NCBI GenBank assembly: GCA_029891345.1
Contig: CM057000.1
Location: 134,505,663 to 134,569,662 of the forward strand
Direction of reading: 5' to 3'
Length of the DNA: 64,000 nucleotides
Source: Dryococelus australis
Taxonomy: Eukaryota; Arthropoda; Insecta; Phasmatodea; Phasmatidae
The notes under the pieces were generated by a model. The model saw only the letters and a list, made by a program, of their open reading frames with translations. It did not search any database and was not told where the DNA came from. Positions 3,673-62,962 of the stretch are shown here, one piece after another. The translations under genes were made by a program, and so were the position numbers. Every line of letters begins with the position of its first letter. Positions within the stretch are counted from its first letter, which is position 1.

Positions 3673-4361
3673 AAAAAAAAAAAAACTAGCGTCCATCCCA
3701 CAGTTAAGCATATCCCGACCGACTTTTACTTACGGTCTCAGGTATCTCAAACAAGAAATTGTTTTTACGCGTAACGTACGTAATTCTACACTATGCTTGA
3801 TCGTTTTAACAACCGATGATCTGTAGGTTTCGTGTTCGGTTGCAGTGACACTGTCACATGCATCGCTTACCTTCACCTGTCCTGCTCGTGCGAGGGAAGG
3901 AGAGTGAGAAGGTCAAGGAAGTAACCCGAGAGCGCACGTGTGTTTTTCAAAGGCGTGCCGCCGCGATAAGTCCACCGCGACGCACACGCTCCTGATATTC
4001 AGCGGATTGGATTTCTCTGCGGTCATCCACGAAAGAATGTTCTGGCCAATGTTCTAGCTTCTCTCGGCGATACTCGGGGTGCCGGGGGAACCTTCCATGT
4101 GGGGATGGAGAGACTATTCAAGCAGACGACGAACCAGCAGAGCGACGAGTGGCGACGTAAGCGACCAGCGGGATTGAAGTCTGCGGACTGCGAGCATCGG
4201 CGCAGTGAAGGTTGTGACTGGCGGACGGGACTACTGAACTGGATGTGTGGGTGTAAAATATCTGTTAGATGCCAATAGACAGACTGAGCATGTGTAAATA
4301 ATGAGTGTGAACCAACATGAAGACATTACATATTGCGCTCGCTGAGAATTACATGGGTAAG

Positions 4362-4780
4362 GGCTGTTCACGATAAAGTGAGCACTTTCGAAATCAACAT
4401 TAGAAAAAAGTCACTGTCCCTGCCTGCATATATTCTAACTGGAGCACTGAGTAACACGTGTCCAGTAATGTTGGTAATGAAGGATGGAAACTAGTTCCAT
4501 ATGTTAATGTCGAATAACAAGTGTCAAGTAACTGTTGGCGATAACTTAAATTATTTCTTACGCTGTCTGTTTTTTTAATGCATCAAAGTGTAAAAATGTA
4601 AACAGAATTGCAAGATATTAATTTTTCTAATGATATCACAGTTTCACTTGACCAACGCATGAATTAAGTGATGAGTTCAATGGCAATGTTAATTTTACAT
4701 ACGGCGGAAGAATACACAACGTGCATACAAGTAGATCTTAAGCAGGGCTTCCAAAAATGCTCATTTTACCGTAAACAGCC
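4362..4780. mobile_element. MITE family A, full copy
   Basis: The termini are inverted: GGCTGTTCACGATAAAGTGAG at the left and TGCTCATTTTACCGTAAACAGCC at the right. Interior landmarks shared by all A copies are CACTGCCC/GTCCCTGCCTGCATATATT, TAACACGTGTCCAGTAATGTTGG and ACAACGTGCATACAAGTAGATC. About 420 bp with no coding capacity. It abuts the fold-back element that begins at 4793. Confidence 0.8.
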
Positions 4781-4792
4781 TCTAATAGTGGG

Positions 4793-5188
4793 TATACAGG
4801 CTGATTCTCAATTAAACCGACAAACTTTGGGAGGTGATTCTTCATGAAAAAGTAAAAGGAAAACATATGTGACACTTTATACCTAAACCGAATATTAAGG
4901 GAGGTATGAGCCCTTAAAAAAACGAGATTTTAAGCCTCATTTGTGCAAAGTATCGGCTCTTATATTGAAGGTCCCAATAACATGCAATAATGTTCCGAGA
5001 GTTGTCATTGTATTTTACTTCGTTACCGATATTTTGCACAAATACGGTTTAAAACCTCATTTTTTAAGGGCTGATACCTCCCTTAATATTCTGTTTCGGT
5101 ACAAAGTGTCACATATGTTTACTTTTTACTTTTTCATGAAGAATCACCTCCCGAAGTTTGTTGGTGTAATTTCTAGTCAGCCTGTATA
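4793..5188. mobile_element. Fold-back element with ~150-bp inverted arms
   Basis: Starts TATACAGGCTGATTCTC and ends GTCAGCCTGTATA. The arms contain GGGAGGTGATTCTTCATGAA, ACATATGTGACACTTTATACC and ATATTAAGGGAGGTATGAGC in one direction and their complement in the other. They flank a ~100-bp centre (GTTCCGAGAGTTGTCATTG). About 396 bp, probably TA-flanked and non-coding. The second copy is at 50103. Confidence 0.8.
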
Positions 5189-5221
5189 CAGTTTATTGAG
5201 CAAATAAAGGCCGCGTAAATA

Positions 5222-7760: not shown

Positions 7761-7968
7761 AAAAGGGGTTGGGGGGGGGGGGGACAGTTTCCTCAGACAG
7801 TAGCACCTCCGGCAGACCTCAAACGACGCACGCCCAAGACGCTGTTCCGTTTAGTATTGCATGTAACATGTACAATGTAAAAAAAAAAAAAAATTCATGT
7901 AAACCTCCTCAACTTTAATAGAAGTTCTTAACCTCTACAGTGTATGGAAATTGTATTACTAGATATAT

Positions 7969-8388
7969 GCTGTTCACGGTAGTGAGCGCTTTTGAAATCA
8001 ACCTTAGAAAAAAGTCACTGCCCTTACCTGCGTATATTATAATGGGCGCACTGAGTGACATGTGCCTAGTAAAGTTGGTAACGGTTGATGGGAAGTAGTT
8101 CAATATCTTAACGCCGAACAAAATGTGTTAAGAAACCATTTGTGAGAATTTAAATTATTTATTTCGCTTTCTGTTTTTATTAATGCAGCGAAGTGTAAAA
8201 ATTAGCAAATTTGTAAAAAAAAAAATTACTTTTATAATAAATACCACAATTTTACTTGTCCGATGCATGAATAAAGTGATAAGGCCCATGGAAATGTTAA
8301 TTTTGCACAAGGCGGAAGAATACACAACGTGCACACAAATAGATCTTAAGCAGGGCTTTCAAAAGTGCTAATTTTATCGTGAACAGCC
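7969..8388. mobile_element. MITE family A, full copy
   Basis: The copy runs from GCTGTTCACGGTAGTGAGCG to AAAAGTGCTAATTTTATCGTGAACAGCC, with the same interior as the 4362 copy (GTCACTGCCCTTACCTGCGT, ACAACGTGCACACAAATAGATC). It is flanked by TA-rich sequence. MITE family B sequence follows directly. Confidence 0.8.
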
Positions 8389-9967: not shown

Positions 9968-10222
9968 GGGCCGTGGCGGCTGAGTGGTTAGCCTGCCCGC
10001 CTCCCAACAAGGCGGACCGGGTTCAAACCGGGTCTCTCCTAGATTTTCGCACGCGGAGGAATCGTGCTGGACGATGCAGCTGGTCGGCGGGTTTTCTACG
10101 GGATCTCCCGTTTCCCCCGCTCTTTCATTCCGACGTTTCTCCATACTCACAACAATCGCCCTAGTCGGTTTCCAAGACCTCGCTCTTAAGAGCCACCCAA
10201 ATTTCTTCACTCACTCTTCAAT
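9968..10222 (+). mobile_element. tRNA-derived SINE, full-length with target duplication
   Basis: The head reads as a tRNA-like promoter: GGCTGAGTGGTTAG as A box and GGGTTCAAACC as B box. A body follows (AATCGTGCTGGACGATGC, GGGTTTTCTACGGGATCTCC, CATTCCGACGTTTCTCCATACTCAC). The tail ends in a short T/C-rich stretch without a long poly(A). Flanking direct repeats CTTCGTAACTTAG (9955-9967) and CTTCCTAACTTAG (10223-10235) match at 12 of 13 bases, marking retroposition and exact ends. The same family occurs at 19386, 38261, 42949 and 51412. Confidence 0.85.
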
Positions 10223-19385: not shown

Positions 19386-19614
19386 AACAACTGGGTCAAG
19401 AGAGTGGATAAGGTTGAAACGAGGTGGAAACGGAGCAGCGCTGGAATGCAAGAACGGGGGAAATTGGAGATCCCCGAGAAAACCCGTCCACCAGCTGCAT
19501 CGTCCAGCATGATTCCCCATGTGCAAAAATCTGGGAGCGGCCCCGCCGGGAATCGAACCCGGTTCGTCTTAGTGGGGGAGGCGAGTGTCCTAACCGCTGC
19601 GCCAACGTAGTCCC
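19386..19614 (-). mobile_element. tRNA-derived SINE, near full-length
   Basis: On the - strand the head carries GCGCAGCGGTTAGGAC and the B box GGTTCGATTCC, then the family body (CATGCTGGACGATGCAGC, GGGTTTTCTCGGGGATCTCC, TTGCATTCCAGCGCTGCTCC). The 3' limit is uncertain and no convincing target duplication was found. The tRNA-like head resembles a tRNA gene, but the conserved SINE body downstream shows what it is. It lies 40 bp from an A2 MITE copy that starts at 19655. Confidence 0.8.
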
Positions 19615-26115: not shown

Positions 26116-26939
26116 AAATTGCAAAATTTTTGGGCCATAAATTAAAAATAAAGCCTAGCAGAAAATGAAAGAGGAAACAAATAGCATTTCCACATCAGGA
26201 AAGTCAGTGTAACATTAGAGTGGAAACCTAACTGTTCCCGAAAAATAATCTAAGAGCTGCAAGTCTAATTAAATTTTGTATTTTGAATAACTGCAAGGCC
26301 AAACAAACACTCAACAAAGCTACAGTAGTGAAAAAGATTTGTTTCAATGTATTATGGAAGGAAACTTGCCGAAGGCTAATCGCATTGTACACGTATACAG
26401 CCTATAGTTTATCAATTCACTTCTGCAGCCCAAGTAGCTGCATTAGTCATACATACAAATATATCACACACCACAAGTAACCGCTATAAATTGCTGGTCT
26501 GAATACAGTGCATTGTCTTAGGGTGTATTTTTACAGTGGCTGATTGTTTTCTCTTGCCCCATTCCTCGTAGTCACCGTGTCTATTGTCTGACATATGAGA
26601 AATAAATACGTATTCTCATCCTTAACCAAGGTGGAATCGTGTGCACATTTTGTAACAGGATATTCAGTTGTGAGAACGAGGATAGGAAAATGCTTGAAAC
26701 TGGAGCTGTGGATCACATACAAACCGAGCTCCCTCTGCTTAGCGCACAAGCACACACATACCTAGGAGGTCGGACTCACGACCATCCGCCGCCCGTCCGC
26801 CAGTCCCTTGATATTCTACCAATCACTGGGTAACTATTTTTTCTATCCGTTACTCCGTCATATATTTCTCAAACTTTAACTTTCGACGGACCGACGGATG
26901 GGCCACCGCCATCTGGCGACATTCCGTAGATGCAATGAA
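26116..26939. other. Left flank of the two-gene transposon
   Basis: No gene supported. GACGGACCGACGGATGG at 26885 resembles the GACGGACGATGGACGGATG run beyond the right end (32892). Confidence 0.4.
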
Positions 26940-27021
26940 CCATTTGCGGGAGGCGTGACTTAAGAGCTTCCAGAGTTTGCCGCTAGAATTCGCCACGGTT
27001 TGTGGGACAGTTTCGTGAACA

Positions 27022-29033
27022 ATGGCTGAAAACGTATGGCTTCGGGGCTACACGTGGTCCAAATCGCTGTTAAATATTAAGAATTTTTACCATTTCCGTT
27101 GGACTGAAATACGCGAGCAGTGAAGGGAGTGAGAGATTAATCAGAGAAGGCTACAGTGTGTTTGTTTTCTCATATCATAAAGACGAGTGGGCAGCAGGAA
27201 CAGAAGATGGCGGTACCATAGTGAAAGATTCGTGCTATCCACGTCAAAGAAAAAACGACGGTCTCCGGACCGTGTACTTTAAAGTTAAAACATCGGACAC
27301 AACTCTAGAAATAATGGATTCGTACCGCACTTGCATAGCTGGGTATGTTTATATATATATATTACATTGTATAGGTATTCCATGTGCTTGTTTACTTGTA
27401 GGGTTTCTGTATACAAAGTGTGTCTCTACGATTATCCTTAATACTACATACGCAATAATAAACAATGATTTTATTTCATTGGTAGTAATAATATATTAAA
27501 ATTAGATTTGCTTTTTCATAATTTAAGTTAATAGTTTTCAATAGGTTAAATAATTGTGTTGAACGAATAAAAGGGTGTAAACCTGTCAGATTAGAGGTAA
27601 CATTGTGTAGAACTATGCCTACAGTGTAGCTGAATCTTTATTTTTTACTATAAAATAACTTTTTAATAACTTTATAACATAGGCCTATGCGTTCTGTGTT
27701 TGTTTTTAAATCATTTAATAATCAAATAATATTAACCAATTACAAGTAGATTTCGTTGGTGGAAATTTATTTATTTACAGATTTGGAAAATGTATTCTTC
27801 TCATGGGTCTATTTTATCTAATAAATAACTGTTGCTGCAGTGGGATGAGGGAGTTACCAGTAGATCTGACTTGCACAAGTGTAGAACAACAGTGGCACAA
27901 ACCACGTGGAGACAAAATAAACCCAGAGCTCGTAATGGAATGCATATTGGCCAAACCGAAGGCGAAAAGGAAGAGGCAACCATTGACCTGCTCTATAACC
28001 AGAATGAAACCACACTACATACCAGAATCGAAAGGAGTAGGTAAAATGCATGCTAAACTGAAGGAAACTAATACAGACTTCCCATTTTCATACCTATTAG
28101 AAGGCCATAAGAATGATAGAATATGTGTAACACCATTAGGCCATGTTCCTTCAAACAGTTGTGTTGCTTATCAGGTAGTAAATACAGACATTATAAACTT
28201 ATGTAAAAGTAGTAGTAAAAAAAACTTAAACGATTTCCTGATCTTCCTGTGAAGAAGATTAACCGTGGCATACAACTCTGTGACATAATTTGTCACTTAA
28301 ATATTTAGGTGTAACAAGAAAACAAGCTGTTGATATTGAAAAATTAACTCTTAAGTCAATCAAGTTCACAGGAATGGCTTTCTCAGAGGAGATTAAGGTT
28401 AACTGCTTCTAGGTTTGGTGAGGTATGCCTCGGAAAAAAATCCGTAACTGATAACATTTTTAGCAAATTTGCATGATACAAAAAATTTATCGTATGTGAG
28501 TGCAGTTGCCTATGGTCAGAAGCAAGAAGCGAAAGCTAGAATGCTATACTCAAACTTAAATGACAAACATGTGACTGTTTTTTTGATTTGGACTTGTTAT
28601 TAACCCAGGATTGCAAGTTTTAGGCTGTTCACCTGATGGCAAGGTTACTGAACCCACAGAACACCCAGTGCATGGCTTGTTGGAGATTAAATGTCCAAAA
28701 TCTATAATAATTCTTACACTTCAGGAAGCTTGTACTGACACAAAATTTTGTTGTACACTGCTGAATGGTTCTTTGCATCTGAAAATAAATCATAAATACT
28801 ATTTCCAAGTCCAAGGACAGCTATACATAACATATATAGAATGGTGTGATTTTGTTGTGTTTAAGGGGAAAGAAGTTTGGGTGGAAAGAATTAGGAAAAA
28901 TAATGAATTTTGTAAAGAGATGGCGAAGAAAATATGTATGTTTATACTGGCCACTTTGCCCCATTTCTATATAAGAAACTCTCCACTGGCTATCACTAAG
29001 AATGTGTTCTTGGACCCGTGTATAGACATGTGA
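27022..29033 (+). pseudogene. SWIM zinc-finger + YqaJ/lambda-exonuclease-like accessory protein of the transposon
   Basis: Exon 1 reads through LIREGYSVFVFSYHK and ends ...YRTCIAG at 27342. A GTATGT donor and TTTACAG acceptor bound a 438-bp intron (27343-27780). Exon 2 continues FGKCILLMGLFYLINN, then GMRELPVDLTCTS and QQWHKPRG, the typical post-SWIM block of this family. Further downstream are ASRFGEVC (about 28400), YGQKQEAKARMLY (about 28510) and the nuclease core CSPDG (28626-28640), LLEIKCPKS (28680-28706) and YFQVQGQLYITYIEWCDF. The metal-binding Asp, Glu and Lys (D at 28635, E at 28683, K at 28689) are kept. SWIM is CxC...CxH in the family; here it reads RxC...CxL (Arg at 27326, Leu at 27797), so two zinc ligands are lost. 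The first ATG (27022, MAENVWLRG) is out of frame with the rest of exon 1. The frame also breaks near 28252, 28290, 28470 and 28580. A polyadenylation signal AATAAA overlaps the stop at 29031-29038. Expected role, by family: 5'-3' exonuclease or end-processing activity aiding transposition; this is unproven. Confidence 0.85.
27343..27780 (+). other. Intron in the SWIM/YqaJ gene
   Basis: The GT-AG intron has donor GG|GTATGT and acceptor TTATTTACAG|A. Splicing joins the GG of exon 1 to the A of exon 2 as a Gly codon and restores the SWIM reading TCIAGFGKC across the junction, which supports these borders. It is a phase 2 intron of 438 bp, AT-rich, with no further features. Confidence 0.7.
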
Positions 29034-30051
29034 ATAAAATTAATCTTAAAATACATTTAGCAGTTTTCAGTAAACAGTGTGATTTTGTTTGTAAACTGAG
29101 TTAACTGAAGCAGTTCACAATTTTTTTAAATATAACTGTGCCCACGTAGTCCACATTTGTTTTTGCTTTTTGTTTATGTTTCTTCAGACATTTACACAAA
29201 CTGTTTTAACAGTAATAAATTCCCTCAATGGTTTATTCTACTGTGCCATTATGAAAAATATGCTTATATTATATCTTGGGTTAATGTAGAGGCATGTTTG
29301 CTATTATTTTAGTGATATATTTTTCGAGTGTATTTCAGAAAAATTATAGTGCCATTTAAAATTCCTGTATATAGATTTGAATGACAGAATAATTTTGTGT
29401 AAAAGAATGTTTTTAATTCATTTTTTTTTTCATTAATTAGCTAAATACCTAGCTCACAAGGACTCCTTTCACAAAACCATGTGCTTAATTTTCAGTCCAA
29501 GAAACATGTCAATATATCTGAAAAAAATAGTGAAACTATATTTCATGTTGTGCACATGTATCACTCATGTTGCTGGAATGAATGTTACACAGCCAATGTA
29601 AAAATATGCATGTAGTATTTAGTATAGGAGTTAACAAAATTAAATATAGGATAATATTAATGAAGCCAGTAAATAATATCTGTTTACAAAGAAAACATAC
29701 TGTGAACTATGACTTTTTTCACATATGTGGTATCATCATGTCTAATGAGTTTCAGTTGATATTATAAATGATTGAAATTAGTACTTGCATTTATTAATTA
29801 ATTTTTATAGCATACCCAAACTAGGATATCTAATTAACAAGAATATCAGATTCTAGTTTTCAATTACTATTCTAGTTTTGTTACAATGATACACAATGCT
29901 AACTGTTTTATGTGAAAGAAAATAATACCACCTGCTGCATTATTTACAACGATACTGCTGAATTATCAAAAGAAATTAAATGTTTACCACATATTGTTAA
30001 GGGATTTTACATTTTACCATATGCAAAATATTTTTACATTTGAGTGAAAAA
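29034..30051. other. Spacer between the convergent transposon genes
   Basis: About 1 kb of AT-rich sequence separates the 3' ends of the nuclease and transposase genes. The only signal I see is the AATAAA at the end of the nuclease gene. No reading frame here has recognisable motifs. It is probably the shared 3' untranslated region of the two convergent transcripts. Confidence 0.5.
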
Positions 30052-32504
30052 CTACATCATTGCAAATAATACTGAAAATATACATATTTTAAGGCTATTT
30101 TGGGTGGTATTATAATTTGTTGAGTGTTTCCTTTTGGTAACTACCCTGAAATTACACAGAAAACAACACACTGTCCATATCTGATTGGTGTGTGGCAGTA
30201 GAATAACAGGGACAGTTTTTTTTTAAAGTATTTTGAAAGATTCTATCTTACTTATAGTACGCTCTATTGTTACTCTAGCTGTGGCTATTTTCTTTGCTAC
30301 CATAACTTCTTCCTCTGAGAACTGACATTGTGATGAAGCCATTGGGGTGGGAGGGGGGTGGTGATGTTAATTTTCAAACCAAGTGATTCAATCTCATTCT
30401 TAATGTTAAAACCTTTATCAACCATTATCCCATCACCCTTATTGACTTTAACAACTGCAATTTTTTGTTTAATAATTTTACAGGAGCCACTTGACTGGGT
30501 AATTTGTTTGTCAGATGTACTACCTGTGTACAACTGTGATACAAAAATTACTCCACCCTTAAAGTCACACCCTACTAATCCTTTTACTGTATTTGCAGAT
30601 TTATAGTTGTAATATGACTGTGACTGTAAAACTAATGAAGATGGAATTTCTGTTTTCATTTCAGTTGCATCAAGGAAGATAAGAGTATTAGGGAACAATT
30701 TTGTGAATGATATAAGTGTATTTCTCAGGATTATATTCCTGTAGGGCCAAATATCAATTGAACCAAGCCTATAAAATAAATAGTTAATCCATTCTGTAAA
30801 TACAGTTCCAACTGTGGTTTTGTGACACTTTAAACCTCACTGACAAGTCAAATAATTCGAAACCTTGCCTCAGCTTACACAGAACCATAAAACTTCATCT
30901 TCAACCAGTTTGGACTGTAACCTTCCTGTTACTTTTGAAGTAACAGGATTAACTGCATTTGGAATAACAAACTTCAAAAATGTGTCAAAAACATGAACAC
31001 TCCTAAAACCTGTATAGTAACTCAGCACTTTTGCATTATTTTTTTTCATTGAGTTACAGGAAAAAATTGGGTAACAGAGTTTATTTCTAAAGTGCTTGCA
31101 GCTTCAATGAGAACTGCATTTGTTTTATGAAGTTGTTCAATTTCTTTCAGCTTGAGATCTAGAAACGATTCCAATATCAGTTTTTCTCTTCCTAAACTTT
31201 GCACTCGTACTTGAAGCTCTTCAGTTTCGTCTGATGTTCTTTTTAACTCACATGCAGCTAGTAGACAGTCAAGGCCAGATGTACTTTGTTGTGCTAGTTC
31301 CAGAGAAGGTTGAGAGCTTTCTGTACTTTCTTGATGTGTTGATGTTTTCTGAAAAATGCATAAAGTGAATGTAACTGCAGGCATCCATTTTTTGCAGCAC
31401 TGATTAGGAACTTAATGACGTGAACTAAACTGTATAGTTGTGAGATCAATTTCAGTAAATAGTATCATTTAGGTTTATTGCCCTCCTTTGTAAAATATTT
31501 TCATGTTAAGGCTATGTGATTTCGATCAAATTTGAATGCTAAATAGCATAGTCATAATCTCTACTTGCTTTAGTTACATAATTTTTTACTTTACCAAAGT
31601 AAGGAAGAATTAAACTGTTTCCATATTTCGCAAAATAACTGTAATCAGTATACAGGGATAAACTAGTGTTTACACTGACAGAAAAATATTAGAATTTAGT
31701 GAACGTTAGACTTTAAAGATATTGTCACTTTTAGTAGATAATAAAATCAATTAAATATTAATTTTCCTTTTCAAATACGTGCTGTTGTGTGTAACTTGAA
31801 AACTTACATTATGCCTATAATACCGTACACAGGCGAGGTTTCTGTGGGACGGAGAAGGGGAGTTGGGGGTTAATCACACATAAAAGTACTGTTCAATAAT
31901 GAAAAACTTTATTTTGAAAAAAAAGTTACTCTTCTGCAGAGTGTAATTTTTACTAGTAAGGCAATTTTACGTTTAGTGTGTATCAGCTCAATAGCCTACA
32001 AGAATTTTCTCCCGCACTGAGGTATTTAACATAGGCCTACGCAGTAATGAAACAGGCATGTCAAGAGGCGTTACGATACAAATAGTTGCTTATGGTAATA
32101 AAATATTTAACAGTGTTGATTATTCAGTTGCCTGTAAACAAAGTAAATTACTTACTTTAATCTCCTGTTCGTTTGAGAATGCAGTGTCATCAACATGCCT
32201 CTTGTAACTTAGTTTACGTCTCGGAAGTTTGTTGCTTAGGTGCGATGTAAATGAAAAAAACACTCGGAATTGCATTAGGTTTTAAAATGTTTCGCCCTAA
32301 ACGCCTATACATGAAACTGTTTTCTGTAAAATGTGACGAACAAACACGCATCGTGTCGCTGATTTTCTTGCCGCGCCTATCATCACGGCGTATTTTATGC
32401 AGCCATTGTTTGCGGATATTTACGTCCTTTGAAATGGAATAAAAAGATATCCCTTTCATCGTAGCTTTGTTTTTACATTGCGGCACTATACAGTACTGCA
32501 CCAT
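30052..32504 (-). pseudogene. THAP-DDE transposase of the two-gene transposon
   Basis: The chosen start is the Met of MVQYCIVPQCKNK (32504), because it places the THAP zinc finger at the N-terminus as usual. THAP features are Cys-x4-Cys, a central Trp (RKQWLHKIRR), CSSHF, and the closing AIPSVF that matches the family's AVPTIF. Exon 1 ends at 32156 (EQEIK) before GTAAGT; exon 2 starts at 31348 after TTTTTCAG and holds a coiled coil (EELQVRVQSLGREKLILESF). The DDE_Tnp_4 core follows: VFTEWINYLFYRLGSIDIWP, FLDATEMK (Asp at 30671), LVGCDFKG, GSTSDKQI (Asp at 30512), VDKGF (30422) and EEEVMVAKKIATARVTIER with the expected catalytic Glu at 30262-30264. The C-terminus resembles the usual QIWTVC block. 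Damage: one extra T in a 7-T run in exon 1 (about 32260), a stop ending the exon 2 frame at 31046, at least two stops between 30830 and 30890, a frameshift near 30350 and another near 30215. Likely role: DNA cutting and joining at element ends. Confidence 0.85.
31349..32155 (-). other. Intron in the THAP-DDE transposase gene
   Basis: This 807-bp phase 0 intron runs from GTAAGT (rc of 32150-32155) to TTTTTCAG (rc ending at 31349). It separates the THAP exon and its basic linker (KLPRRKLSYKRH) from the coiled-coil/DDE part. The interior is AT-rich with no other motif that I recognise. Confidence 0.6.
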
Positions 32505-32660
32505 ATTTGTTAGATACCGTAAATCATTAAAATATCCAACAGAGTTCGTCACCGTCCGTACTGCACTTCTAGCTCTTGTCCCACGAACAACTGCGCGTGG
32601 CAGCTGTGGGCGGAGCTATGACGTCAGAAGAGGCGGAGCGACCAACTTGTCCATTACGCA

Positions 32661-34399
32661 CTTTGAAATAAAATGCAAGGCGATTGATCTGTGTATATTA
32701 TCATTGGTGGTGAATTCAGGAATTAAATATGTAAACAATAATATAGTTTAATTTCTTATCACGTAAAAAAAATTATCTGTTCACACTGCTTCTATCTTGA
32801 AAATGTATTTCCAACCAAGATAAACCTCGTACTAAAGAAATATCACGATGTTAAGTTGTCACGCTGAAATTTTGCCGTACAGAAGGATTGACGGACGATG
32901 GACGGATGACTGACTGACGGACGGGCGACTGACAGATGCGACGGATGTTTGTGGGCCCAGCTGTACAAAGAGATAGGTGACAACTAAATTACAAGCACAG
33001 CTGATAGAGAGCGGTGTTCGTCCACAATACAGTTGAGACAGCGCAATTTTTGCAGAGTGAAAATGGGGATTACACGATTGAAATGAGACTGTCAGGTTTC
33101 GGTTACAATTTCCTGGTACAACTTGGATGCGCGTGCCGCTTACATATATGAGTTTGTGTTAATCTAGAAAGTAAACCACTCCCAATTACCTTATTCAAAC
33201 ATGGCAGTTGTCTTGGGTGTGACATGAGAAAATGAATATTCGAATACCCAAATATGTGAAGCGAATTTATCAATATTAGGTATAATAAAACAAATTTGGC
33301 ATTATTAATATACTTTCAAGCAATTGTTTCTTTTTCCATACATATATCGGCCATGTCGGTACATACTACTAAAGCGAGAGAGAGAGAGACAGAGAGAGAG
33401 TGAAAAAAGGGGGGGGGGGTTATTTACAGTTACATTTGTTTCCACTTCCCTTCATCGTTTTGATGGGTCTGGGCTACCAGTAAAAAATTTACTCTGCATA
33501 ATATTTCGCAGATGATAATGTTTTCTTATTTCTTATTGCTGGGAGCAGTGGATGGGGGAAGCGCATTGGCAATTACAAAGTCTATCAAAGGGAGAAGTTG
33601 TCAGATATCTGGTTGTTATGGTAATACGGGATCGTATGCGACAGGCGAGAGATTCACAGGAGCGACTGAAGTAAAATGCAGGAGAGTGTGAGCCAGAACC
33701 ACTGTGCTCCCGCTACTAACATTATAGTGACCAGTATTTTCTGTTTTATCGCGAAGACATATCTTCTCAATGAAGGTAAATCTATTATCTGCGATACTGG
33801 AGATACTAATGAAAAATAAAGATATCACATGATAATATTCAAAATTTGGTTTTACAGTGTTAACTGACGAAGTAAATATACATAAACAAGTAAACAGATA
33901 ATACCCTTGGCTACCCAGAGACTAGCAATGTAATTACAGCTGTGTGAAAGCCGAAGTCCTGCAGTGCAGAAGACAGATCACGGGGACAATGGCAAACTGC
34001 GCTCCGTAATACAGCAGGCTAGCCACACTGTTTAGTAATCAGGGGGAAGACAATGTCTTGGCCAGAACAGGGTAAGTCGTGTCCGAAGGGTTGGTACCTT
34101 GTTGCCGACATGGGATCCAGTAATTGATGTCCCTCCAGCGGAAGCGAGTGAGGGAGAGGGGTAATTAGCATGCTGACTGGAGACAGTCTAGGGACGCTGG
34201 GCGTCTCAACCATCTCTGGCGCCTGGCTCCCTCCCCTCCCTCGACAGAGGACTTCTGCACGTGCGACAAGGTGGGAGGTTCTGGATTGTGCCACGTCGAG
34301 AGTTGAAATCCTTCACCAGCACCCTCTCTCATTTTCCTTCCACTTCAACGTGTACTGCGACATAGCCCGTTCACTGTTACTCACAACTTTTCTGAGACC
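32661..34399. other. Right flank of the two-gene transposon, no gene seen
   Basis: Contains a GACGGACG/GACTGACTGACGGACG simple repeat at 32890-32950, a (GA)n run at 33374-33402 followed by a G run, and a GC-richer segment at 34100-34300 with no motif. Confidence 0.4.
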
Positions 34400-38260: not shown

Positions 38261-38512
38261 ATGAGTGAAGAGATTTGGGCTGTTCTCAACAGCGAGGTAT
38301 TGAGAGGCAATGAGGGTGATTGAGGTGAGTATGGAGCAGCGCCGGAATGAAAGGGCTTGGGAAACTGGAGATCCCCGAGAAAACCCGCCAACCAGTGGCA
38401 TAGTCCGGTACGATTCCCACATGCGAAAATCCGGTAGTGAACCGGCCGGGGATTGAACCTGGCTCGCAATAGTGGGAGGCGAGCAGGCTATCCGCTCAGC
38501 CACTGCGGCCCC
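38261..38512 (-). mobile_element. tRNA-derived SINE, full-length with target duplication
   Basis: This - strand copy starts GGGGCCGCAGTGGCTGAGCGG and has a B box variant GGTTCAATCCC. Its body is that of the other copies (CGTACCGGACTATGCCACTGG, CGGGTTTTCTCGGGGATCTCC). Flanks TTCATAATGGA (38250-38260) and TTCATGACTGGA (38513-38524) look like an aged target duplication, so both ends are probably intact. Confidence 0.8.
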
Positions 38513-42948: not shown

Positions 42949-43178
42949 GGAAGAGATTTGGGCGACTCGTAATGTCGAGGTCTAGAGGTGAGTATGGAGT
43001 AGCGCCGGAATGAATTGGCGTGTGGGGACGGGAAACCCTGAGAAAACCCGCCGAACCAGCGGCATCGTCCGGCAAGATTCCCAAACATGCGAAAATCCGG
43101 ACGCGACCCCGCCGGGATCGAACCCGGCTCGCCCAGTTGGGATGCGAGCAGTCTAACCACTACAACATCCGCGGCTCC
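42949..43178 (-). mobile_element. tRNA-derived SINE, near full-length
   Basis: On the - strand the head reads GTTGTAGTGGTTAGACTG, and the B box GGTTCGATCCC is near consensus. The body follows the family but has a small internal deletion around the GGGTTTTCTC block (43020-43045). No target duplication is evident. A tRNA gene caller may score this head as a tRNA. Confidence 0.75.
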
Positions 43179-48965: not shown

Positions 48966-49092
48966 GGGAACGGTAACAGCTAAACAGCGCGTCGTGTATT
49001 AGAGATAACATTGCGAGAAATAACTTTGGAGTAAAGGCCGTCAGTCAGCCAGTGTTTGCCGCGTTACAAATATAGCGGTACAGCCACGCAAA

Positions 49093-49487
49093 GGCTGTTT
49101 ACGATAAAGTGAACACCTTTGAAATCTACATCAGAAAAATGTCACTGCCCCATGCCTGCATATATTTTAACGGGCACACTGAGTAACATGCGCCTAGTGA
49201 AGTTGGTAATGATGGATAGAAAGCAGTTCCATATATTAACGTCGAATAAAAAGTGTTAGGTAACCATTTGTGATAACTTATAATTACTTTCGCTTTCTGT
49301 ATTTTGTAATCCACCAAAGTGTAAAAATGAGAAGATTTGTAAAATATTTACTTTTCTTATAATTACAGTTTCATTTGACCGAAGTCCATGGCAATGTTAA
49401 TTTTACCTATTTTGGAGTAATACACAACGTGCATACGAATAGATCTAAAGCAGGGCTTTAGAAATGGCCATTTTACCGTCAACAGCC
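49093..49487. mobile_element. MITE family A, full copy
   Basis: The ends are GGCTGTTTACGATAAAGTG and GGCCATTTTACCGTCAACAGCC. The interior shows GTCACTGCCCCATGCCTGC and CACAACGTGCATACGAATAG. It is slightly shorter than other copies through an internal loss near 49380 (the dyad CATGAATAAAGTGATGAGG is missing). Confidence 0.8.
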
Positions 49488-50102
49488 TCTAAACTGCTGG
49501 GTTTCATGTTAAGAGCTCCGGGAATGCCTCGCAATATGCGCATTCCCGAATCATATAAACAAGAACAGAATTGTAAGAACTTAATATATTTTGACGGGGT
49601 CGGATTAATTGACAAGATATTTACCCGCTGGTAATACTCGTGCAGCAAATTCTTATGGAATACTTATTTTTCGTTTTAATAATTGCCAGTTTTTTTTGTA
49701 AATATTAGGGATATACACCACATATTCAGTAAATACGCCAATAACCGAAACAATGTTATCAACAACAAAGTAGTATTGAAATTTATACGCCCTAAAGGAA
49801 AATAACATTTTATAGAAAAACATTGAAAGAGCTTTTAAATAGCTGAAATTCGGTTTAGATAAAGCTTTTTTTTTATTTGTCTTCTTAAAAGTTCTAAATA
49901 AAATCTTTTCATAAAATTCTAAAGAGTTATTTTAAACATGTACCATTTTGTGGTTTCTGTGTGATATTATTCGATATATAATAATGCGTTTTTTATTCGA
50001 AAAATTGTTACTGTATGTGGTGTTTTTGTTAATTTAAATATACAGCCACTAAAACAAAACCCATATAAATATATTAAATAGCGAAAATTCAGTTCTTGAT
50101 TA

Positions 50103-50474
50103 TATACAGAGGGATTCTCAATTAGACAGACAGACTTCGGGAGGTGATTCTTCATGAAAAAGTAAAAAGAAAACACATGTGACACTTTATACCTAAACCG
50201 AATATTAAGGGAGGTATGAGTCCGTATTCGTGCAAAATATCGGCTCTTACGTTGAAGGTCCCGATAATATACAGTAATGTTCCGAGAGTTGTCATTGTAT
50301 TTTACTTAGTTACCGATATTTTGCACAAATACGGTTTGAAACCTCGTTTTTTAAGGGCTCATACCTCCCTTAATATTCTGTTTAGGTATAAAGTGTCACA
50401 TATGTTTTCTTTTACTTTTTAATTAAGAATCACCTCCCGAAGTTTGTCGGTCTAATTGTGAACCACTCTGTATA
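50103..50474. mobile_element. Fold-back element, second copy
   Basis: TATACAGAGGGATTCTC to CCACTCTGTATA, with the same arms (GGGAGGTGATTCTTCATGAA, ATATTAAGGGAGGTATGAG) and the same centre (TGTTCCGAGAGTTGTCATTG). The left arm is shorter than in the 4793 copy through an internal loss after GTATGAGTCC. The two copies are close enough to suggest a fairly recent common source. Confidence 0.8.
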
Positions 50475-51411
50475 TTTCGGAAATCCACGCACGGTAAGAT
50501 ATATCCATAAGAAACAGTCGTCTTCTATGTTAGCGAAACTGGTTAAGGTGAACACAGGTCCTGCCACTGCTACAGCAGACATCGCCTTGCTGAGAGCAGC
50601 ACCTGATCCCGATAAGAGAAATCCGCTTTCCCGAAGGAAAACACGAATGTGATTTCCGTGAGCCTCCCAAACTGCGGACTGTGTTTTGAGACGGGGGAAA
50701 CTGCAGACATCGCCCAGCTCCGGGCTGTCGCAGTAAGATAGACATAAGGAGACTCGTAGCGGAGTATCTGTGAGCAAGGTCTCACAATACTGCCGTCTGC
50801 TCGCTGTAAGGAACTCGAGAAGATAAGGACCTCGAGCAACATAATTCTGGCAAGGGGGACACCAAGATTTTTCCAAGCGGGGACATAGGGATCACAATGT
50901 GTTTCCTCCAGACGAGTGTAAGATTTACAACTGGGTTTTACACAAGACCAAAATGCAAAAACCTTCCGCGACGTGTCATATGAATAAGTTCGTTTATATT
51001 TAACAACATACAATATAATATTAAAAAATTACAAATTGCTAAACAAAAAACCAAAATAAACATGAAAATAAAATAACGGAAACTTTTCCCAGCAAAAAAC
51101 TTGCATTTGGGAGTTACGTCATTAATGAGCGGTTTACTTATTATTTAAAAAAATCGTTATTTTAATTAGCTGTGAAAATTATTACAAACAATAATCATTG
51201 ATGTAATTGATCTCTCAGATTTTAAGGGGAAAAATCTAGTTTCCAGGAAGGTGGCAAGTTCTCCTTTTGCTTCTTACTGCTGACGTCCATGAATTTAGGT
51301 GAGACGCGAAAAAGTGGATACTTAAACAGAGCGACAAAGTAATTACGACTTCAGGATTTCCGTCGCTACGATTTCTGCAGGAGGAACTACGCATTACTTC
51401 AAAAACTTCTT

Positions 51412-51670
51412 GGGGGCCGCGGTAGCTGAGCGGTTAGATTGATCATATTTCACTAAGGTGAACCGGGCTCAATCCCCGGCCGGTCCACTCCCGGATTTTC
51501 CCAAGTGGGAATCGTGCCGGACGATGCCGCTGTTCAGCGGGTTTTCTCAGAGATCTCCCGTTTCCCTCACCCTTGCATTCCGGCGCTGCTCCATTCTCAC
51601 CTTATTTTACCCTCATCGGCTCTTAATACATCCTTGTTAAGAGGCACCCAAATCTTTCAACTCAAACTCA
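51412..51670 (+). mobile_element. tRNA-derived SINE, near full-length
   Basis: The head has GGTAGCTGAGCGGTTAG and a B box GGCTCAATCCC. The body holds AATCGTGCCGGACGATGCCG and CGGGTTTTCTCAGAGATCTC, and the 3' part contains ACCCTCATCGGCTCTTAA. Possible target duplication: CAAAAACTTCT before and CAAAAGCTCTT after (about 51676). It is the best reference copy for the SINE 3' half. Confidence 0.8.
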
Positions 51671-52076
51671 AAAGCTCTTCCGCTAGGCCTGGCTGATGAC
51701 TACTAATAAACTCCTTTTCTTCGGAAATGAAAGTCAGCTTCTAACAACACAAATTAGGTGCTGTATCAAAAAAAAAGTATAATAACAACAATCCGAAGCA
51801 ATGTGAGACTAAAAAATAGAATGGGCGGCGATGCATGGCTGTTTCTATGGTCTGGGAAACTCCGACAGCGAACGAAACACTGGTCTGCCAACTTAGTCGC
51901 ATCTGGTATCGCTCCGTGCCACTGGCGACAAACGATGTTTTTAGATAAACATATGACTTCTAGCTTAACGAGATCGAGCAATAACATGCCTACGATACAC
52001 CGCGAGCATATCCGAGCATCATACGCGCACATCATTAATCAGCGTATCCTCCAAGTCCGAAAGGGGCGGGTAGATG

Positions 52077-52150
52077 CAGTTCATGGTAAAGTGAGCACTT
52101 TTGAAATCAACCTTTGAAGAAAAAGATCACTGCCCGTTAACTGCACATAC
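52077..52150. mobile_element. MITE family A, left-end fragment
   Basis: CAGTTCATGGTAAAGTGAGC, then TTTTGAAATCAACCTTTGAAG and ATCACTGCCC, match the left 70 bp of family A. The match stops before a short (ACAT)n run at 52146-52160. Confidence 0.6.
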
Positions 52151-54785: not shown

Positions 54786-55483
54786 TATAGAAACAGACGT
54801 TCGGTGCGCAACTAGGGCTGTGCAATTTGGCGATACACAGTACCCGTCAAAAGTTTAAGACCATTAGTAAATTTGTTAAAATACTTTCTTGGCTTAAAAC
54901 TTTTGGTGCTCTCTATGTTATACAATTTTCTAGCAATGCCACTTTCAAAACACATAATCATAGTTAAATTACTTAAATCAGGCAAATTATTTGCTAGTTA
55001 TGATTCTTTTAACGACTACAAAAAATCTGGAACTATCGTGCACGTTTTTGTGTTAAAAGTTATACAGAAAGCAATGTTTTAAAAATATTTTGAGTGGAAT
55101 ATTTTAGTGATTTCCTGTATAAAACACACGAAAGAGAAAACATACGATGACAATAATAAATTTCCAATCAGATTTTTATTTTTACTATTTTAAATCGCAT
55201 TGCAAGGAAAGTTAGTTGTAAAATTACTAAATTTGAATACTAAATATGTTTCTTACCAGTTCAGCTAGGAAGATATAGGATTTCCAGCGATAGTTATTTC
55301 TCTTTCCACTCAAAAAATAACACCACAGGTTTGTTACCGGGAAATCATACACTCACCGATTATTACCATCGATTCTGAGACATGTAGTTGCAGTGGAAGT
55401 TTAAAATGGCGGGAAAAAGTATATTACTGAACAGAGTCAATATCGCTGTTGAATAGTTTTAACTCGTAAGCGTCTTAAGTAAA

Positions 55484-55782
55484 GGCTGTTCACGATAGAA
55501 TAAGCACTTTTGACATCTAATTTAGAAAAATATCACTGCCCCTGCCTGCGTATATTTTAAGGGTTACACTTAGTGGGGTAGTAACCCTAGTAAAGTTGGT
55601 AACGATGGATGGAAAGTAGTTCCATATCTTAACGTCGAATAAAAAGTGTTAGATAACCACTTGTGATAATCTAAATTATTTCTTTCGCTATATGTTATTT
55701 ATATGCATCGAAGTGAAAAATGACCAGATTAGTATAATATTCACTTTTATATCAGTTCCATAGTTACTGCTTGAATAAGTAG
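55484..55782. mobile_element. MITE family A, 3'-truncated copy
   Basis: The copy begins GGCTGTTCACGATAGAATAAG and follows the family through ATATCACTGCCCCTGCCTGC and GTTGGTAACGATGGATGG. It then fades near the GAATAAGT dyad at about 55775, so the right TIR is absent. Confidence 0.7.
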
Positions 55783-56025: not shown

Positions 56026-57098
56026 TATTTGTTATTGCAACAGATGGCGACATTAGGAACAGCTGTTTCGTTCAACCTCCAAACCTGGAACATACGCACT
56101 TTTATCGAATTTGTAAATTGCACTTAAATTACTATTAACGAACTTATGAAGACAGTTGCTGGTAGTTTAATGACAGTCATGAATTATAACTAAGGAATGC
56201 CACAGCGTCTCGTTGGTGCGAAGCCAATGTAACTTAACCAAACCTGAGTCGACACTTATGCAGAAAATTAAAAAAAACGAACAAATGTAAATTATGTGAA
56301 TTTATAAGTTGCGCACAAACTCCACTTATGTCCTTTCAAAAAACCTTTTCCTTTCCGTATTGAGTTACATACTTGGTAAAGAAGGCCGACTCTGAGCAGC
56401 ATTGTCAGCTTATCTGACAGTCCGTGTGTTAAAAATGGTATAATACGCAGCCAATCAGGGAGAGGTCCCCGATTATTTCATTTCGCAAATCAGTTCATTA
56501 CATCCCTTGCGTTCATCCCTAGATCAAAATATTAAACGGAAAAAAAAAAAAAAAAAAAAAAAACCCAGCCTACGAGCACGTCAAAAACGATTACGTTTTA
56601 GATTTTTATTTCATTACTACTCGTAAACGATAGCTGTTCCAAGAGATTTTATAAATTTTCCCTAATGTTCCATGTCATGGAAACTGATTGCAATTAAATT
56701 TTTGTAGGGACCTTGTAAACGAGTTCATTCGCGAGAATTTGCAAGTAGTATGGCATAACCGTACTCGTGGAAAATTAATTAACCACTTTATGGAGCAAAC
56801 AATTACAATCAATACACATATACCAGTGCTCTCTAATTTGGTCTCCGATTTGAATGACGGATAATGGAACATCAACGAAATGTCTTTTAATTATGTAATT
56901 TTCTCCATGGCTGCCTGCGGCCGTCAATTTTCATCTTCCGAAGGGCGTAATTTGGGAAACAGCGCTGGCTCGGGGAAAATTCATCTGCACGCGAGCTGCG
57001 GATATTGGCGGAGGGGGAGGGGTGAGGGGGAGGGGGACCACAAACGAACTGTGGCTTCGGTAACCTTGGACGTTTCTGTTGAGATATTGACAGGTATA

Positions 57099-57177
57099 GG
57101 CTGTTCACGGTAAACATAAAACTTTTGAAAGCCCCTGCATAAGATATACTTGTACGCACATAATCTCTGCATTCTAA
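57099..57177. mobile_element. MITE family A fragment, reverse orientation
   Basis: GGCTGTTCACGGTAAACATAA, AAAGCCCCTGCATAAGATATAC and TTGTACGCACATAAT match the reverse complement of the right end of family A over about 80 bp. The remainder is missing. Confidence 0.6.
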
Positions 57178-57639: not shown

Positions 57640-58244
57640 AAACAATGAGTGTAACCACACCGAACGACTAAGCATGCAGCAAATTCTGGCACGTTACATG
57701 TCGTACGAACGCTGAATATCTCTTTGGGGTACGGCATTCCACGTTCGCTGGATGCCAGGCGCCTCACACATGCTTGATAGCGCACATATCGCACACGTGC
57801 TTGATAGGGCTGAGATCTGGAGAGCTAGCAGACCATGGTATAGCATGATTACACCGTGTAGAGTACGCTGTGTTGCCATAGCGGCATGGCAACGTGAGTT
57901 ATCGTGCAGGAAGATCGGTTCCTGCAGACTGTCGAGACGGGCGGAGGGCAGGTTTGACGTCGCAAAATGTACAACCCGCCCATACTGCTCCCCTGAACGA
58001 ATAACAAAGGCGATCGGGATGTGTAGCTAACGGCCTCTTGCGCCGTTAAACCCAGGTGTGGACCCGCTATTGTGAGTGCGAATGCACGATGGATTGTCCC
58101 GCTCACCTTTGCGTCTACGAATGCGAACATGGGCAATACTTTGTCCATGGCACAAACGGCTCTCATCGCTGAACACCACAACTCTCCACTCACTTCTCCA
58201 ACTCACTATCTCATGATACCACCGGAGACGTTCATGGCGATATA
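57640..58244 (-). pseudogene. Tc1-like transposase, catalytic part
   Basis: On the - strand: HERLRWYHEIVSWRSEWRVVVFSDESRLC (first catalytic Asp in FSDES), VRIRRRKGERDNPSCIRTH, then in other frames YTSRSPLLFVQG, FLHDNSRCHAAMATQRTLHGV (second Asp in HDN, family QDNARPH), ALSSTCAICALSS in place of SPDLSPIEHVW, and WNAVPQRDIQRSYD near the C-terminus. The order and spacing are those of Tc1/mariner transposases of about 340 residues. Frame changes near 58030, 57905 and 57800 and loss of the SPIEH segment with its catalytic acid make it inactive. It continues upstream beyond the A2 MITE at 58245-58459. Confidence 0.8.
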
Positions 58245-58459
58245 GGCCGTTCACGGTAAAGCGAGCACTTTTGAAGACCTAGTTACTATTTCTTTCAACC
58301 AATTTATACCCTTCCGCCACTTGTTAATGTGAACCCTGTCACGTGAGTAATAAACACAGTGTATACATTCATCATGACCGAGGCCACAATGAAATGTGTT
58401 CATTGGCTATTATGTTTGATGGAACAGCTTCAAATAGTGCTCACTTTACGCCGAACGGC
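58245..58459. mobile_element. MITE family A2 inserted in a Tc1-like transposase
   Basis: The ends are GGCCGTTCACGGTAAAGCGAG and GTGCTCACTTTACGCCGAACGGC, with the interior AATAAACACAGTGTATACATT. ATATA lies on both sides (58240-58244 and 58460-58464), a likely target duplication. Tc1-like transposase sequence on the - strand continues across it (RVPLARLPLTP on one side, YRHERLRWYHEI on the other), so the MITE jumped into an existing element. Confidence 0.8.
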
Positions 58460-58825: not shown

Positions 58826-58932
58826 TTACTTCGGAGAGACTTCCGATTAATATTTAATAAAGTGGTTTTTGAATAAATGAAATGCAGTTAACATAATTAC
58901 CCTCCCGTTTTGGACAACGCAACGAATGTATA

Positions 58933-59169
58933 GGCTATTCGCGGTAAAGTGAGCATTTTTGACAGTCCTCTCATTTGGAATAACGGGTCAGTAAATATAC
59001 TTTATTTTAGCCGTACACGTTAACTTCCAGGGGCGGTGGAATGTATACACCGTGTTTATTACTTAGATAGCAATATTTATTTTAAAAGGTGGCTGAAGGA
59101 TAAAAAAATGACTGAATGGAAAAAGTAACTAGGGCTTCAAACAAAAGTGCTCACATTGCCGTGGACAGC
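58933..59169. mobile_element. MITE family A2, full copy in reverse orientation
   Basis: GGCTATTCGCGGTAAAGTGAG and AGTGCTCACATTGCCGTGGACAGC are the inverted ends. The interior ACACCGTGTTTATTACTTAG and ACGTTAACTTCC is the reverse complement of other A2 copies. Flanks GTATA and ATATA suggest a TATA-like target. Confidence 0.75.
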
Positions 59170-60015: not shown

Positions 60016-60349
60016 AGCTACACAGTCCTCTTAACTGTTCATTTGGTGCTGCTCGTCATTTCCCAGGTACTACAGATACACTCTGTGAGACACGCGCAAT
60101 GCCCTTGCACGGTTAGCTGCACTTGTCGTATTGACGTACTACCTGCGATGATACACTTGGCCTAATGTCAGTAGACCGGTGTAAGCGAGTGGTACCCTTG
60201 AGCTTACAATCAGACTATCGTCTACATACAGTTCGCGTTGTAAATCCCGTTTGGATTGAACGGTGTTTATCTAGGTGGTATTCAATGCATTTCCACTTGT
60301 TTAATTCTTGCCACAATTGTAACACTTTGGTACAATGTTTCTTCCTAGA

Positions 60350-60587
60350 GGCTGTTCACAGTAAAGTGAGCACTTTTGAGGCCCTAGGTACTATTTGCTA
60401 TCAGCCATTTTTTTAAGCCTCCAACCCTCTTTTTTTTTTAACAAATACTGCTACGTGCGTAATAAAACACTGTGTGTATACCACCGCGCTCGGAAGTTAA
60501 CGTCTAAGGCTAAAATAAAATAAATTTATTGCTTATATATTCCAAATGAGAGAGCTTTCAAAAGTGTTCACTTTACTGTGAATAGTC
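60350..60587. mobile_element. MITE family A2, full copy
   Basis: GCTGTTCACAGTAAAGTGAG and AAGTGTTCACTTTACTGTGAATAG form the TIRs. The interior holds AATAAAACACTGTGTGTAT and GTTAACGTCTAAGGCTAAAA. It is the best uninterrupted reference for this subfamily (about 238 bp). Confidence 0.75.
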
Positions 60588-62817: not shown

Positions 62818-62962
62818 GAGCTAGTGAAGAGATTGAGGTCTTGAGAGCCGATCAGGATGAAGCGAGGTGGGTATGCAGCAGCGCCTGAATGAAAGGGTAG
62901 GGGGAAACGGGAGATCCCGAGAAAACCCGCCGACCAGCAGCATCGTCCAGCACTATTCTCCA
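62818..62962 (-). mobile_element. SINE fragment lacking the tRNA-like head
   Basis: The - strand reads GTGCTGGACGATGCTGCTGG, CGGGTTTTCTCGGGATCTCC, then CATTCAGGCGCTGCTGCAT and ATCGGCTCTCAAGACCTCAA, which is the family body and 3' end. The B box and head are missing: the similarity stops at about 62962, where unrelated sequence begins. Confidence 0.7.

Follow-up and report, generated by a model that had tools for sequence, protein, structure and literature searches.

Transposons of the ISL2EU group, which belong to the PIF/Harbinger-ISL2EU-Spy (PHIS) superfamily, encode a THAP-DDE transposase together with a YqaJ exonuclease (PMC4482050; PMC9179366). Their target rule is a duplication of AT within A|AT|T, their terminal repeats range from 6 to 259 bases and usually start with GG, and autonomous members have a mean length of about 4.84 kb (PMC4482050). 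Analysis of a 64,000-nucleotide stretch of the genome of the phasmatodean insect Dryococelus australis (NCBI GenBank assembly GCA_029891345.1, contig CM057000.1, positions 134,505,663 to 134,569,662 of the forward strand; this whole stretch is called the window below, and positions are counted from its first letter) uncovered two convergent gene remnants within 27022-32504, a YqaJ nuclease on the plus strand and a THAP plus DDE_Tnp_4 transposase on the minus strand. This element is very probably a decayed two-gene ISL2EU cut-and-paste transposon of the PHIS superfamily, old and immobile. It has the DDE transposase, the THAP domain and the YqaJ second open reading frame (ORF) described for the group, and since the combination of THAP and YqaJ is what distinguishes ISL2EU from the other PHIS groups (PMC4482050), we file it as ISL2EU. 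The pairing of a THAP-DDE gene with a YqaJ gene is already in print (PMC4482050), and the element is a further copy of a known kind.

Compared with the described ISL2EU elements, the copy shares the pair of THAP-DDE and YqaJ genes, its length is of similar order (5.7 kb), and its candidate ends would carry an AT duplication within A|AT|T. It differs in being broken, in having GA where GG is usual at the candidate left end, and in its short, imperfect terminal repeats. The sister group Spy has a related DDE transposase within PHIS (PMC11304231), although Spy elements insert in AAATTT without a target duplication (PMC4482050) and mostly consist of one gene without YqaJ (PMC9179366), unlike the element reported here, in which a YqaJ gene is present. 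PIF/Harbinger transposons likewise combine a related DDE transposase with a two-gene design; their second gene, however, encodes a Myb/SANT protein, and their duplication is TWA (PMC4482050). Outside this superfamily, KolobokE is also a DDD/E transposon with a lambda-exonuclease-like nuclease, which in that case lies downstream of the transposase domain (PMC9587614).

The Pfam matches for YqaJ, THAP and DDE_Tnp_4 are far beyond chance. The transposase gene spans 32504-30052 on the minus strand in two predicted exons. The exon 1 remnant (32156-32504, minus strand), which contains one frame change, carries the THAP domain (PF05485, E=1.2e-18); both the CxxxxC and CxxH pairs are present, as is an NAIPSVF box, and the best solved structure is THAP domain-containing protein 1 (chain 2ko0_A, E=1.5e-08). 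A putative intron of 807 bases (31349-32155, minus strand) with GTAAGT...TTTTTCAG borders follows, across which the exons rejoin in frame. The exon 2 remnant (30052-31348, minus strand) comprises a coiled-coil-like stretch, a weak helix-turn-helix (HTH) remnant, the DDE domain and a C-terminal tail running to the stop. DDE_Tnp_4 (PF13359) was matched at E=1.7e-22 by a single piece with X at two stops, and at E=4.3e-36 over the whole model (positions 1-158) by the read-through version. The first Asp of the DDE set lies in FLDATE (30669-30671), the second in MVDKGF (30417-30419), and the putative Glu, assigned by reading, in TIERT (30262-30264); all three were placed on the minus strand by peptide position and fall inside the Pfam match. 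The HTH remnant is represented by HTH_Tnp_4 at E=0.039 and 0.058, whose 13-14 bits fall short of the cut-off of 27. The coiled-coil-like stretch after the THAP domain was read by eye, and Pfam returned there only a sub-threshold DUF4164 row, which was not used; neither were the sub-threshold rows for Metallothio_11, ANATO, GBD_T9SS_assoc, AntA and DDE_Tnp_1.

The nuclease gene spans 27022-29033 on the plus strand, again in two predicted exons. Its exon 1 remnant (27022-27342, plus strand) contains one frame change, and its end falls within the opening half of a SWIM-like motif. After a putative intron of 438 bases (27343-27780, plus strand; GTATGT...TTTACAG borders), the reading rejoins in frame with the exon 2 remnant (27781-29033, plus strand), which holds the YqaJ domain (PF09588) and several frame changes. 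The uninterrupted C-terminal piece alone (about 28605-29030) matches PF09588 at E=1.6e-07, and a read-through version, made of three pieces joined by X, matches model positions 6-147 (of 150) at E=9.1e-16. The lambda-exonuclease family TIGR03033 (NCBIfam) was hit at 1.9e-4 with 21.6 bits, well short of the cut-off of 68. Similarity to solved structures was weak: protein R354, which we take to be a mimivirus nuclease, reached 0.0051 and 0.0052, while the value for exonuclease 3syy was 0.044. An eL21 row in the same search was treated as chance. The DDE piece of the transposase drew rows for recA and radical SAM and no others, and these too were treated as chance. An acidic residue, the Glu in VAYGQKQEAKARMLY (28526-28528), precedes the Asp of SPDG (28635-28637) and the Glu-x-Lys of LLEIKCP (28683-28691; Glu 28683, Lys 28689), each placed on the plus strand by peptide position, and we take these to be catalytic-type residues of the YqaJ/lambda-exonuclease type.

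A first-pass annotation, made from the letters of the window, had described two convergent genes for a SWIM/YqaJ nuclease and a THAP-DDE transposase with readable catalytic residues in both, and had assigned them to a transposon of the ISL2EU group that carries a relative of lambda exonuclease. The gene pair is borne out by PF09588 on one strand and PF05485 and PF13359 on the other, and the Asp, Glu and Lys of the nuclease and the D, D and putative E of the transposase can be read at their peptide positions; the domains, the gene layout and the published group description (PMC4482050) support the transposon assignment. The SWIM label found no support in Pfam. Among the four domains that the annotation had proposed for a Pfam check, THAP, DDE_Tnp_4 and YqaJ were matched and SWIM was not (limit E=10, with HMMER filters dropping most matches above about 0.1). 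Across the predicted nuclease intron the spacing is SWIM-like, and the spliced motif reads R-x-C...C-x-L, retaining two of the four ligands of CxC...CxH, with the other two positions not Cys or His.

Both genes are broken and the copy is dead, which the first-pass annotation had not stated. Counted by reading frames, the nuclease has about 5 frame changes in 1574 coding bases, and the transposase has about 6 lesions, 3 of them frame changes and 3 stops, in 1646 coding bases; the reading over 28190-28301 is ambiguous. A similar extent of decay in the two genes is as expected if both arrived together. The frame changes and stops also argue against the view that these are host genes, whether native or domesticated, and no transposon; the predicted introns in both genes would suit host genes, but the two form a published transposon gene pair (PMC4482050), and we consider the probability of a host origin negligible.

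The published gene pair, the similar decay and a set of candidate ends are our reasons for treating both genes as one unit. A scan of 26700-27021 against 32514-32900, which required AAT and then G on each side together with at least 7/10 inverted matches, yielded a single pair in the outer flanks that fits AAT|G...C|ATT, 26937/32652; 0.9% of 1000 Markov shuffles gave one. These ends, together with the gene content, delimit a decayed ISL2EU-type transposon copy of 5716 bp (26937-32652, no strand), the ends being candidates from one copy. Relative to the interval first annotated, 26940-32660, which contains both genes, the candidate ends would lie 3 bases before the start and 8 before the end. 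The candidate left terminal inverted repeat (26937-26946, plus strand) is short and imperfect (7/10) and starts with GA, and its right counterpart (32643-32652, minus strand) starts with GG when read inwards. Flanking them is a candidate target-site duplication of AT, on the left at 26935-26936, preceded by A (AAT, 26934-26936), and on the right at 32653-32654, followed by T (ATT, 32653-32655); this duplication is not independent, as the ends were chosen by the A|AT|T rule from one copy. Farther in, a subterminal inverted repeat at 26998-27009 (plus strand, 61 bases from the candidate end) matches 11 of 12 bases of its partner at 32577-32588 (minus strand, 64 bases from the candidate end). An equally good repeat within 5 bases of matched offset arose in 17/3000 shuffles, with thresholds set after the repeat had been seen. 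With gaps allowed, the outer 75 bases of the two ends align moderately better than expected by chance, the score being reached by 9/2000 shuffles and 76/5000 random real pairs; for the outer 90 bases the corresponding numbers are 47/2000 and 116/5000.

From this one copy, the nuclease and transposase genes likely share a single end pair, 26937/32652, with an AT duplication. The alternative would be two separate adjacent elements, one bearing the nuclease and the other a THAP-DDE transposon, each with independent ends. A pair around the transposase alone (29747/32525) does fit the end rule with 7/10 matches, but this is equalled in 21.6% of 1000 shuffles; around the nuclease alone, the rule yielded no pair. 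The same two genes also make up the published ISL2EU content (PMC4482050; PMC9179366), and with the comparable decay of both this makes two neighbouring insertions very unlikely.

Several observations nevertheless weigh against a single ISL2EU element with these ends. The candidate ends come from one copy and were spotted by eye before the rule was tested, with thresholds chosen later, and the left end is GA, not GG. In an ungapped 16-base scan with AT duplication, 26937/32652 is listed eighth of 665 pairs, tied at 8/16; two other pairs among the best 15 of 665 fit A|AT|T, neither of them G-first, and one of these two, 26824/32868, scores better at 9/16. The gapped end alignment over 40 bases is equalled by 227/2000 shuffles and 783/5000 random real pairs, that over 60 bases by 335/2000 and 584/5000, and a local alignment over 75 bases by 79/2000 and 521/5000. 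Shifting the ends to 26902/32639 gives a score of 12.0 versus 5.5 for the candidate ends. Finally, the best ungapped inverted repeat measures 9 for the outer flanks versus 10 for the nuclease alone and 11 for the transposase alone, the latter two being AT-rich runs.

No second copy of the element was found in the window, where the element with about 540 bases of each flank produced only self-matches. Scanning the window with the end motifs gave 4 matches to the right-end motif, including itself, versus 6.9 expected by chance, and no match to the left-end motif besides itself.

Repeats of other kinds lie just outside the candidate ends. Inverted repeats of the GACGGACGG type pair 26783-26806 with 32885-32908 (75%) and 26785-26805 with 32912-32932 (86%), and are the only pairs joining the outer flanks among the 25 longest of 921 inverted-repeat pairs. 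They were set aside as less likely outer ends because the left stretch folds back on itself and the right stretch belongs to a tandem array. The left flank at 26783-26906 is a fold-back stretch running from CATCCGCC... to ...GACGGATGG, and when 26770-26925 was folded as single-stranded DNA, 1/200 shuffles folded at least as well; it may be a separate small palindromic repeat close to the site of insertion. The right flank at 32889-32947 is a short tandem array of period 19 with consensus TGACTGACGATGGACGGA, and its motif resembles the left-flank fold-back stretch.

In the living ancestor of this copy, the THAP domain would have bound the element ends and the DDE domain would have cut and joined DNA at AATT sites, roles that follow established knowledge of cut-and-paste transposases. 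The YqaJ protein, a nuclease of the lambda-exonuclease type, may have processed the DNA ends that excision produces. The likeliest form of this would be resection of the broken donor site from its 5' ends, leading to repair from a sister copy. The first-pass annotation had similarly suggested a role in end resection or repair after excision. We judge the chances that end processing during transposition is the role of the nuclease to be about even. Analogies for it come from KolobokE, with its lambda-exonuclease-like protein, and from KolobokD, which has a DnaQ-type exonuclease and for which the authors suggest degradation of DNA intermediates (PMC9587614). Counting against it, the sister clade Spy is mostly without a nuclease (PMC9179366) and is reported active, including in mammalian cells (PMC11304231). 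The first-pass annotation had called the function of the nuclease in transposition unexplained, in agreement with the 2015 survey, which calls the functions of the ISL2EU extra genes unknown (PMC4482050). Among the matches listed from the open-licence literature, no test of ISL2EU nuclease function was recognised by title or abstract.

Two other roles for the YqaJ protein were weighed beside end processing. It could serve as a binding partner of DNA or of the transposase, much as the Myb-like second protein does in Harbinger, with its nuclease activity unused, which we regard as somewhat unlikely; the catalytic-type Asp, Glu and Lys are still kept even in this decayed copy, and their presence suggests that the source element had an active nuclease. 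Distinctly less probable is that the YqaJ protein formed a catalytic part of the ISL2EU machine, as a eukaryotic counterpart of TnsA/TnsB in which it would cut or trim the non-transferred (5') strand and leave the 3' strand to be cut and joined by the DDE transposase. YqaJ nucleases and TnsA are of a shared fold class, which speaks for this parallel, but the relatives of YqaJ are exonucleases rather than site-specific endonucleases. The exonucleases of KolobokE and KolobokD (PMC9587614) can be read in favour of a TnsA-like partner too, and the reported activity of the mostly nuclease-free Spy (PMC11304231; PMC9179366) stands against it as it does against end processing.

Relatives of both proteins were sought in viral contigs, where the DDE piece gave 106 pattern stretches and the YqaJ piece 15, none of them confirmed in either case. 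A degenerate DDE motif was found in 4 stretches of viral contigs and 4 of prokaryotic genome contigs, and a degenerate YqaJ N-terminal motif in 0 stretches of viral contigs. Comparison by tblastn of four protein pieces from the window with the 8 motif-fetched loci gave nothing better than E=0.44, and all 8 are therefore taken as chance matches.

The window as a whole has a G+C content of 37.7% and many decayed dispersed repeats, which like the predicted introns indicate a eukaryotic genome, and it contains no tRNA gene and no Rfam match. Pfam scanning of 10 of the 18 ORFs of at least 100 aa outside the element matched none at E up to 0.1. One dispersed repeat, with a reference unit containing GGCTGTTCACGATAAAGTGAGCACTTTCGAAA, is present in 9 copies at 60% identity or more (4355-4409, 7959-8013, 49086-49140, 52068-52122, 55477-55531, 57092-57146, 58238-58292, 58926-58980 and 60343-60397), plus inverted copies. 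Another, with a GAGAAAACCCG core, occurs in both orientations at 10058-10150, 19394-19519, 38295-38420, 42985-43054, 51508-51600 and 62837-62962. Two related compact inverted repeats at 4792-5189 and 50102-50475, whose arms are 87-90% complementary, possibly represent a fold-back miniature transposon family.

One decayed copy alone gives no answer to why some cut-and-paste transposons keep exonucleases, a question on which this example touches. The copy displays the whole ISL2EU gene layout, with a predicted intron in each gene and catalytic-type residues that can still be read, and it adds one example to a group whose second gene lacked an assigned function in the 2015 survey.

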